Assembly (NCBI GenBank): GCA_945881965.1 | Contig: CAMCVS010000008.1 | Coordinates: 62,001-126,000 of the forward strand | Source of the DNA: Paracoccus haematequi | Lineage (GTDB): Bacteria > Pseudomonadota > Alphaproteobacteria > Rhodobacterales > Rhodobacteraceae | Direction of reading: 5' to 3' | DNA length: 64,000 nucleotides | The notes under the pieces: generated by a model | Database searches by the model: none | The model's input: only the letters and a program-made list of their open reading frames with translations | Told to the model about the DNA's origin: nothing | Program-made: the position numbers and the translations under genes | In this document: in pieces, positions 23,781-28,543 of the stretch | How the letters are laid out: every line of letters starts with the position of its first letter | Numbering within the stretch: position 1 is the stretch's first letter

Positions 23781-25046
<1,266 letters not shown>

Positions 25047-25189: not shown

Positions 25190-25819
25190 TCACGCTTTCG
25201 GTTCGGCCTTGCCACGGCTTTCAACGATTTCGTCGATCAGACCCCAGGTCTTGGCCTCTTCGGCGGTCATGAAATTGTCGCGTTCCAGCGCCGCGACGAC
25301 GGTGTCGTAATCGCGCCCGGTGTGTTTCACATAGATTTCGTTCAGCCGCTGCTTCAGCCGTTCGGTTTCGCGCGCGTGGATCAGGATATCGGTCGCCTGC
25401 CCCTGATAGCCGCCCGAAGGCTGGTGGACCATGATGCGGCTGTTGGGCAGCGAGAACCGCATCCCCTTTTCGCCCGCCGTCAGCAACAGCGATCCCATCG
25501 AGGCCGCCTGCCCAATGACCAGCGTGGACACGCGGGGGCGGATATACTGCATCGTGTCATAGATCGACAGGCCCGATGTGACAACGCCACCGGGGCTGTT
25601 GATATACATGCTGATTTCCTTGGACGGGTTTTCCGCCTCAAGGTGCAGCAACTGTGCCACGATCAGCGTCGCCATCATGTCATGCACGGGGCCCGCGATG
25701 AAAATGATCCGCTCCTTCAACAGGCGCGAATAGATGTCATAGGCGCGTTCGCCCCGGCTGGTCTGTTCGACGACCATCGGGACCAGGGTGTTCATGTAAA
25801 AATCGACGGGATCATGCAT
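25190..25819 (-). CDS. clpP: ATP-dependent Clp protease proteolytic subunit ClpP
   Basis: A 209-residue serine protease. The catalytic Ser lies in [12 protein letters not shown], the His in [10 protein letters not shown] and the Asp in [11 protein letters not shown] context. [13 protein letters not shown] and [12 protein letters not shown] are further family blocks. It forms the tetradecameric chamber that works with ClpX encoded just downstream. The 156-bp upstream gap with the divergent photolyase-like gene should hold its promoter; I see no unambiguous heat-shock sigma site. Confidence 0.98.
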
Positions 25820-25975: not shown

Positions 25976-27178
25976 ATGGATCAGATCATCTTTACCCCCA
26001 CCCGCGCCGCCGGTCTGGAACGGCTGGCAGATTTCACGCCCCGCGCCGGGGCTGCCTATACGGCCGGGCGCAACACCGACCCCGGCCCCGCTCAAAACGG
26101 CGCAGTGTCGCGGCTGTCGCCGTGGATACGCCACCGTCTGGTCACCGAGGAAGAGGTGCTGCGCACGGTTCTGGGTCGTCATACACCACAGGCGGCAGCC
26201 AAGTTCATCGACGAGGTGTTCTGGCGCGCCTATTGGAAGGGCTGGCTGGAAATGCGGCCCTCGGTCTGGACCGGCTATCGCGCCGGGGTTGCGCGCGCAC
26301 TGGACCGGGTGGCGACCGAAGCCGGATTGCGCCGCGACTGGGAAGCCGCCTGCAAGGGCGAAACCGGCATCGACGGCTTTGACGACTGGGCGCGCGAATT
26401 GGTGGCGACCGGCTGGATGCACAATCACGCGCGGATGTGGTTCGCGTCGATCTGGATTTTCACGCTGCGGCTGCCGTGGGAATTGGGCGCGGATTTCTTT
26501 GCCCGCCATCTGATGGATGCGGATCCGGCGTCAAACACGCTGGGCTGGCGTTGGGTCGCGGGGCTGCATACACCCGGCAAAACCTATCTGGCCACCACCG
26601 ACAATATCCGCCGCTACACGGACGGGCGGTTTGCCCCCACGGGCCTGTCGCGCGAGGCGCACCCCATTGCGGGTGCGCCCAACCCGCCCGCGATGGCGCT
26701 GGACCTGCCGCGCTTGGGCGACTTGCCTGCGGGCAAGGTCGGGCTGATCCTGCATGACGAAGACCTTGCCCCGTGGTTTCTCGGCGCGCCGGGGGCCGAG
26801 GCGACGCTGTTTATATCCGCCCGCGCCGGGTTCAGCCCCTTGGCGATGGGGGCGGCAGGGGCGGCGTTCGCGGCGGGTGCCGCAACTGATGCCGTCGCGC
26901 GCTGGCAGGGGCGGTTGGGCCGGGTCACGCAGGGCGCGGCACACGCCGATGCAATCGCCGACTGGGCCGCGACCGAGGGGCTTTCGGTGGTGCGCGCGGC
27001 CTATGCGCCTGTGGGGCCGACGGCGGATTTGCTGGCGAACGCCGCGCGGCGGCTGGCAGAGGCGGGCTGTGTTCTGGAGCCTGTGGTGCGGCCCTATGAT
27101 GCGCGGGCCTGGCCCCATGCCACGCACGGGTTTTTCAAGTTCCGCGAGGCGATAGCTCGGTTACTGTCCGCGCTGTAA
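25976..27178 (+). CDS. Photolyase/cryptochrome-like FAD protein with apparently permuted domain order
   Basis: A 400-residue protein. Residues about 35-215 match the helical FAD-binding domain of photolyases: SRLSPWIRHRLVTEEEV, FIDEVFWRAYWKGWLEM, GFDDWARELVATGWMHNHARMW, FTLRLPWELGADFFARHLMD and DPASNTLGWRWVAGL. The usual N-terminal alpha/beta antenna domain is missing from the front. The C-terminal 150 residues instead look like that domain: GKVGLILHDEDLAPWFL, AIADWAATEGLSVVRAAYAP, LLANAARRLAEAG and HATHGFFKFREAI, which resembles the end of the photolyase alpha/beta domain (FTPF-type segment). The motif normally contacting the adenine of FAD (NPxxQ) is altered to TTDNIRR. The role may be light sensing or an electron-transfer function rather than repair. 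Confidence 0.82.
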   Translation: MDQIIFTPTRAAGLERLADFTPRAGAAYTAGRNTDPGPAQNGAVSRLSPWIRHRLVTEEEVLRTVLGRHTPQAAAKFIDEVFWRAYWKGWLEMRPSVWTGYRAGVARALDRVATEAGLRRDWEAACKGETGIDGFDDWARELVATGWMHNHARMWFASIWIFTLRLPWELGADFFARHLMDADPASNTLGWRWVAGLHTPGKTYLATTDNIRRYTDGRFAPTGLSREAHPIAGAPNPPAMALDLPRLGDLPAGKVGLILHDEDLAPWFLGAPGAEATLFISARAGFSPLAMGAAGAAFAAGAATDAVARWQGRLGRVTQGAAHADAIADWAATEGLSVVRAAYAPVGPTADLLANAARRLAEAGCVLEPVVRPYDARAWPHATHGFFKFREAIARLLSAL

Positions 27179-27280: not shown

Positions 27281-28543
27281 TCAGCCGAACATGTCGGACG
27301 TGATGCCAGCATACCAGCCGATGCTTTCCTCGTAGGTCTGTTTGCGCAGGGCCGCATCCTCGCCGGGTTTCGAGATGAAATTGCTGGTCGAGGCGATCTT
27401 TTCCGGTGTCGGCTCATAGGCTGCGCCGACCTTGACACCGTCATCCGGCGCGATCAGGGACCAGCAGGTGTTGGAATACTTGGCCGGGAACACCTTGGAC
27501 CCGGTCAATTCGCCCCGGATCGCCATCACGGCAACCTTGGCCTGGCTGTTGGCGGAATAGCCCGATTTCGGCATGTCGCCCTGCGCGGACGCATCGCCAA
27601 GGATGAACACATTCGCGTCCATCTTGGATTTCATGCTGTCGGCATGGACCGGCGCCCAGCCCTTGTCATCGGTCACACCGGCGATGCCTGCGATCTTGCC
27701 CGCCATCTGGCCGGGGATGACGTTGCAGACGTCAACCTTTTGCACGGTGCCATCGACGACGATTTCCATCGTGGCTGGCCGCACCTCGACCTTGTCGCCG
27801 CCAAATTCAGGGCCGACGCGTTCGATCATGCCCGGATAATGCCGTTCCCAGCCCTCTTCGAACAGGGCCTGCTTGGAATACTTGTCCTTGGGGTCGATCA
27901 GCAGGATCTTGGCGGTGGGGTTCGACGTTTTCAGAACATGGGCCACCATGCTGATCCGCTCATAGGGGCCGGGCGGGCAGCGATAGGGGTTCGGCGGCGC
28001 GATCATCGCGAATGTGCCCCCCTGCGGCATCGCGGCAATCTGCGCCTTCAGCAATTGGGTCTGTGGGCCGGCCTTGTAGGCATGCGGCATGATCTCGGCG
28101 GCGTCCGCCGACCAGCCGGGCACCGATCCGTCCTTGAAATCAATGCCGGGCGACAGCACGAGGCGGTCATAGGCCAGCACTTCGCCCCCTGCCAGCGTCA
28201 CCGTGCGGGCCGCGCGGTCAACGCCGGTGGCCATGGCGTTGATGACGGTCACGCCGCCTGCGGCGATGCCGTCATAGCCGTGTTGCAGGCTTTCAAACGC
28301 GCGGAACCCGCCCAGATAGAGGTTGGAAAAGAAGCAGGTGGTATAGATCGGGTTCGCCTCGACCAAGGTCACGTCCAGCGCGCCCTTGCTGTCTTTTGCC
28401 AGATAGCGCGCCGCCGTCGCACCACCGGCCCCGCCGCCGATCACCACCACGCGGGGTTTCGCCTGCGCCCAGACCGTCGGGGCCGCCAACAAGGCCGATG
28501 TGGCCAATCCTGCGCCGATAAAGGCGCGTCTGTTCAGTGTCAT
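27281..28543 (-). CDS. soxF: SoxF flavoprotein (FccB-like sulfide dehydrogenase flavin subunit)
   Basis: A 420-residue exported flavoprotein. A Tat signal (MTLNRRAFIGAGLATSALLA) is followed by the FAD-binding VVVIGGGAGGATAARYLA, redox-active Cys segments (NPIYTTCFFSNLYLGG and PYRCPPGPYER) and DANVFILGDAS. Together with the diheme SoxE it forms a flavocytochrome c-type sulfide dehydrogenase in the periplasm; in Paracoccus SoxF stimulates thiosulfate oxidation by reactivating SoxYZ. It starts 54 bp after soxE and is the last gene of the minus-strand cluster. Confidence 0.95.
   Translation of the reverse strand: MTLNRRAFIGAGLATSALLAAPTVWAQAKPRVVVIGGGAGGATAARYLAKDSKGALDVTLVEANPIYTTCFFSNLYLGGFRAFESLQHGYDGIAAGGVTVINAMATGVDRAARTVTLAGGEVLAYDRLVLSPGIDFKDGSVPGWSADAAEIMPHAYKAGPQTQLLKAQIAAMPQGGTFAMIAPPNPYRCPPGPYERISMVAHVLKTSNPTAKILLIDPKDKYSKQALFEEGWERHYPGMIERVGPEFGGDKVEVRPATMEIVVDGTVQKVDVCNVIPGQMAGKIAGIAGVTDDKGWAPVHADSMKSKMDANVFILGDASAQGDMPKSGYSANSQAKVAVMAIRGELTGSKVFPAKYSNTCWSLIAPDDGVKVGAAYEPTPEKIASTSNFISKPGEDAALRKQTYEESIGWYAGITSDMFG

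Follow-up and report, generated by a model that had tools for sequence, protein, structure and literature searches.

A probable NewPHL-class photolyase gene with inverted domain order beside clpP-clpX in Paracoccus haematequi

Inverted-order photolyases and the Paracoccus locus

According to PMC9426592 and PMC13274461, both of which cite Emmerich et al. 2020, the NewPHL class of photolyases is defined by an inverted domain order. The class includes a rhodobacteral member, D. shibae A8LJA9 (PMC13274461), and NewPHL/Phr7 proteins combine inverted domains and a tryptophan (Trp) dyad with a lack of iron-sulfur (Fe-S) cysteines and with repair of cyclobutane pyrimidine dimers (CPDs) in single-stranded DNA (PMC9426592, PMC13274461, PMC8948257), CPD repair being reported for the characterised Fe-S-free NewPHLs (PMC9426592). 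The D. shibae protein has the Trp dyad (PMC8948257), an asparagine near the flavin N5 is conserved in NewPHL (PMC12083526), NewPHL and the short photolyase-like (SPL) proteins have been treated as one group (PMC13274461), and in cyanobacteria inverted forms occur both as separate genes and as fusions (PMC9426592). Here we describe an open reading frame (ORF) at positions 25976-27178 of a 64,000-nucleotide stretch of the Paracoccus haematequi genome (contig CAMCVS010000008.1; hereafter the window). It very probably encodes a NewPHL-class photolyase, i.e. an inverted-topology flavoprotein with an N-terminal flavin adenine dinucleotide (FAD)-binding domain and a C-terminal alpha/beta domain; the domain content, order, fold, conservation and clade membership observed for the ORF are described below. 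The original prediction for this DNA had regarded such a permuted protein as unusual. The inversion is real but already known and not unusual in this lineage, as it is the hallmark of a bacterial class described in 2020 with at least the one other rhodobacteral member named above. The gene and its parts are as follows.

25976..27178, forward strand: whole gene of the inverted-order (NewPHL-like) photolyase, 400 amino acids, to which 66 homologues align end to end
25976..26641, forward strand: N-terminal catalytic FAD-binding helical domain, residues 1-222, from the PF03441 match and the full model; its C-terminal end is truncated relative to the canonical domain
26642..26734, forward strand: linker, residues 223-253, coil in the model and weakly conserved
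26735..27175, forward strand: predicted C-terminal alpha/beta domain (antenna-type fold, "Z-domain" position), residues 254-400, from the model of the domain alone, Foldseek and profile matches

Reading frame and FAD-binding domain

A search with hidden Markov models (HMMs) places PF03441 at residues 77-205 (E 9.6e-23, profile positions 1-127 of 203), and photolyases from the PDB align from about residue 5 to about residue 205; the FAD domain therefore comes first, as had been predicted. NCBIfam photolyase models likewise begin to align close to the N-terminus and end at about residue 205, and the FAD-domain motifs originally quoted are present in the ORF. The full-length AlphaFold2 model, calculated with 66 sequences, has a mean predicted local distance difference test (pLDDT) value of 96.1 and a predicted template modelling (pTM) score of 0.93; in the PDB it is closest to photolyases, in alignments of about 220 columns, with E. 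coli photolyase 1dnp ranking first. The FAD-first order is kept in the 66 aligned homologues, mostly from Rhodobacterales, and in this alignment the family's own full-length similarity level is 42-59%.

The ORF starts with ATG, above which the frame is open for 3 codons only (403 versus 400 amino acids) before an in-frame stop, and clpP, on the opposite strand, starts 157 bp away at 25819. A canonical N-terminal alpha/beta domain is therefore absent, and a hidden or separate N-terminal domain in the real gene is ruled out by the stop just 5' of the ATG and by the opposite-strand clpP upstream. At its other end the protein terminates in HATHGFFKFREAI-ARLLSAL and not as first given.

Conserved residues and predicted function

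Residue equivalences are given below with E. coli photolyase numbering in brackets, and invariance refers to the family rows compared. The functional roles of the E. coli residues are those established for class I photolyases. According to the alignment, the flavin residues are Y28 (Y222), S45 (S235), S48 (S238), R84 (R278), R153 (R344), D181 (D372), D183 (D374) and N187 (N378), the last being the invariant asparagine near the flavin N5. The CPD pocket, E80 (E274), W83 (W277), N150 (N341), M154 (M345) and W193 (W384), is invariant, as are W191 (W382) and W168 (W359) of the electron chain. The W306 equivalent is D110 and is never Trp in the family, which leaves a Trp dyad and not a triad. Among the DNA-phosphate residues R32 (R226) is retained. 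The NPxxQ motif is indeed changed, to DNIRRY, a replacement common to the FAD-first relatives compared, with N210 invariant. The only cysteines are C126 and C366, and inspection of sequence and alignment revealed no four-cysteine Fe-S motif in the 400-residue protein.

As read from the alignment, the flavin and CPD-pocket residues are nearly all kept, and because of this conservation the earlier suggestion of a possibly non-repair flavoprotein is not supported; the characterised NewPHLs, as cited above, repair CPDs. By analogy with these relatives we infer FAD binding, CPD repair and a preference for single-stranded DNA, and the enzyme is likely to use blue light to repair CPDs, probably those in single-stranded DNA. 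In such a mechanism blue light would excite FADH- in the helical domain, and the excited FADH- would donate an electron to a dimer flipped into the pocket of E80, W83, N150, M154 and W193, whereupon the dimer would split and the electron return; photoreduction of FAD would proceed via the dyad of W191 and W168. The FAD site is probably capped by the C-terminal domain, in which an antenna pigment may or may not be bound; the 2020 abstract of Emmerich et al. reportedly states that this domain seals the site from solvent.

In eukaryotic (6-4) enzymes histidines occupy the positions equivalent to N150 and M154. An inverted-topology (6-4) photolyase, as proposed for cyanobacterial Phr4/Phr5, would agree with the (6-4) activity that PMC9426592 proposes for Fe-S-bearing inverted forms, but the window family lacks the Fe-S cysteines, has Asn and Met in place of the two histidines, and resembles in its Fe-S-free state the NewPHLs for which CPD repair is described; we regard this reading as extremely improbable.

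The C-terminal domain and sequences that bridge it to the antenna domain

In the model the C-terminal ~155 amino acids form a five-stranded alpha/beta domain, in agreement with the original description of the last ~150 residues. Modelled alone (mean pLDDT 92.9), it is closest in the PDB to the cryptochromes 2vtb (Arabidopsis cryptochrome 3) and 3zxs (Rhodobacter CryB), at a Foldseek probability of 1.00. Among the matches listed, photolyases and cryptochromes reach TMq values up to 0.66 (2j4d) and other folds up to about 0.5; the Foldseek E-values are modest, 0.004 and above. HMM searches of the two halves, as originally suggested, gave the expected PF03441 on the N-terminal half but no PF00875 on the C-terminal half, with zero direct matches across the 66 family members. 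Homology of the C-terminal domain to the antenna domain therefore rests on intermediates and fold.

The intermediates come from relatives that share the FAD-first order. Plasmid proteins of Deinococcus, recorded as "FAD-binding domain-containing protein", have the FAD domain first as well, and for 2 of 3 of them the C-terminal part gives a PF00875 match that stays below Pfam's cut-off (E 7e-4 and 1e-3). In Deinococcus sp. QL22 the FAD and alpha/beta parts are separate genes with an ATGA overlap, and the second matches PF00875 at E 2.3e-4 (again below the cut-off). The aligned alpha/beta parts of Deinococcus and two-gene forms match the canonical antenna domain (E 1.1e-9, 134 columns), and in a second comparison the alpha/beta profile of FAD-first relatives matches it at E 5.9e-10, with photolyase/cryptochrome N-termini as its top PDB sequence matches. 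The profile of the ORF's C-terminal domain in turn matches that of the free-standing alpha/beta subunits over nearly its full length (E 1.7e-4, improving to 2.8e-5 with more sequences), while response-regulator controls gave E 0.04-0.4. When the free-standing alpha/beta profile was run against 700 background ORFs, the top score went to a family member inadvertently included among them, and of the 34 canonical antenna domains 20 outscored every background ORF. Judging from the model and these profiles, the C-terminal half is an alpha/beta domain of the photolyase type, and not a domain unrelated to PF00875.

Several observations weigh against the assignment to NewPHL. The direct match of the C-terminal domain to the canonical antenna profile is weak, though in register (P 0.0045, probability 7.8-12%), and a PDB sequence search with the C-terminal domain profile returned no photolyase. 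The DNA-phosphate arginines R342 and R397 of E. coli photolyase are H151 and A206 here, and the likeness of the ORF to A8LJA9 is drawn from published descriptions of that protein. The weak profile match, together with the generic alpha/beta folds among the Foldseek matches, could suggest that the photolyase FAD domain is fused to an unrelated Rossmann domain of the nucleotide-binding type; the higher scores of photolyases and cryptochromes in Foldseek, the subunits that connect the domain to the canonical antenna domain, and the top rank of a family member among the background ORFs make this highly unlikely. The altered arginines could also mark a cryptochrome-like light sensor of NewPHL architecture that has lost repair, the more so as the genome already encodes two other photolyase-family proteins, both of conventional order (open frames of 477 and 504 amino acids). 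However, the CPD-contacting residues and N187 are invariant, there is no fused output domain, and the change of R342 to His is common to nearly all FAD-first relatives sampled, so that we consider a sensor very unlikely.

Two-gene forms and phylogeny

The arrangement of an FAD gene followed by an overlapping alpha/beta gene was also found in alphaproteobacterial genomes (G078, G087 and G089). In one order of small-genome alphaproteobacteria such an FAD gene is present in 14 of 28 genomes, and 14 of the 15 loci from this order have a detected alpha/beta gene adjoining it, in most cases with a start/stop overlap of 1 to 8 bases; the gene order is kept across these loci (L166-L180). Two-gene photolyases, with the free-standing alpha/beta gene directly following and overlapping the FAD gene, are located at L148:4471-5597, L149:4461-5682, L150:4447-6239 and L143:2896-4187.

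In a tree of FAD domains, a branch with 100/99 support sets the window family, the fused proteins of Deinococcus and Persicobacter and the two-gene forms apart from the sampled conventional-order photolyases, and the same separation is obtained without Persicobacter. Fused and split forms are intermixed, although a single fused clade is not rejected (approximately unbiased test, p 0.11). Very tentatively, an FAD-first operon of two translationally coupled genes (FAD, then alpha/beta), fused more than once, might represent an early state of the photolyase superfamily, a doubtful scenario in which SPL proteins may carry the alpha/beta domain C-terminally or in trans, as two-subunit photolyases. 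Present in small-genome alphaproteobacteria and Deinococcus, the two-gene form broadens the phr4/phr5 observation beyond cyanobacteria and offers a handle on how both photolyase domains came together. Neither this coupled form nor the clpP-clpX synteny described below was found in the literature searched; both are modest extensions.

On a Persicobacter plasmid (L144:2896-5527) the inverted fused photolyase overlaps the start of a second, conventional-order photolyase-family gene. In the plasmid copy of Novosphingobium THN1 (L146:2709-3720) the frame breaks after the FAD domain, by a frameshift or a sequencing error.

Distribution and genomic neighborhood

The homologues are mostly from Rhodobacterales, with others in Caulobacterales, Sphingomonadales, Rhizobiaceae and Azospirillaceae, and in the same-family genomes sampled this is the sole FAD-first family found. 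The neighbors in the window are the following.

23781..25046, reverse strand: clpX
25190..25819, reverse strand: clpP, divergent neighbor; the clpP/clpX synteny is conserved
27281..28543, reverse strand: flavocytochrome c / sulfide dehydrogenase flavoprotein-like gene at the start of the sox region, identified from sequence

Of 91 loci, 72 have clpX upstream and on the opposite strand, and 30 have the flavocytochrome-like gene downstream. The clpP-clpX neighborhood is a conserved chromosomal position and in itself no functional clue. Inverted-topology photolyases are a gene kept there in many Rhodobacterales, under records that say only "FAD-binding domain-containing protein".

Plasmid-borne homologues outside this locus (L104, L106, L110, L111, L145) often adjoin an AarF/UbiB kinase gene or a DUF3429 gene. 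A 135-amino-acid open frame with a partial PF00875 match (G010:C41:25958-26110, near L102 and L153), about 3.3 kb from a NewPHL gene, is possibly a photolyase remnant. A phage search yielded nothing but weak matches, all of them covering less than 80% of the query, and viral contigs searched with the FAD protein of the two-gene form gave no match.

Comparison with known systems

With E. coli PhrB, a class I CPD photolyase, the ORF has in common the FAD-binding and most CPD-pocket residues; it differs in the reversed domain order, the shorter end of the FAD domain and the changed NPxxQ, W306, R342 and R397. The N-terminal PF00875 domain of conventional-order class I photolyases and cryptochromes is absent from it. 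SPL proteins (Xu et al. 2021, as summarised in PMC9649867) are described as lacking the alpha/beta domain, whereas the ORF carries one C-terminally. Like SPL, the ORF has no N-terminal alpha/beta domain, and in its relatives this domain may be a separate downstream gene; the four cysteines of the SPL Fe-S subgroup are absent. In cyanobacterial Phr4/Phr5 (separate ORFs) and Phr6 (fused) the FAD domain precedes the alpha/beta domain, as in the ORF, and their FAD domains are reported to be nearest to Phr7, but they possess four Fe-S cysteines that the ORF lacks (PMC9426592). With NewPHL/Phr7, represented by D. shibae A8LJA9 and M. mesophilicum M7YZC8, the ORF shares the N-terminal FAD domain, the short C-terminal photolyase-like domain, the lack of Fe-S cysteines, the Trp dyad, the N5 asparagine and the occurrence in Rhodobacterales.
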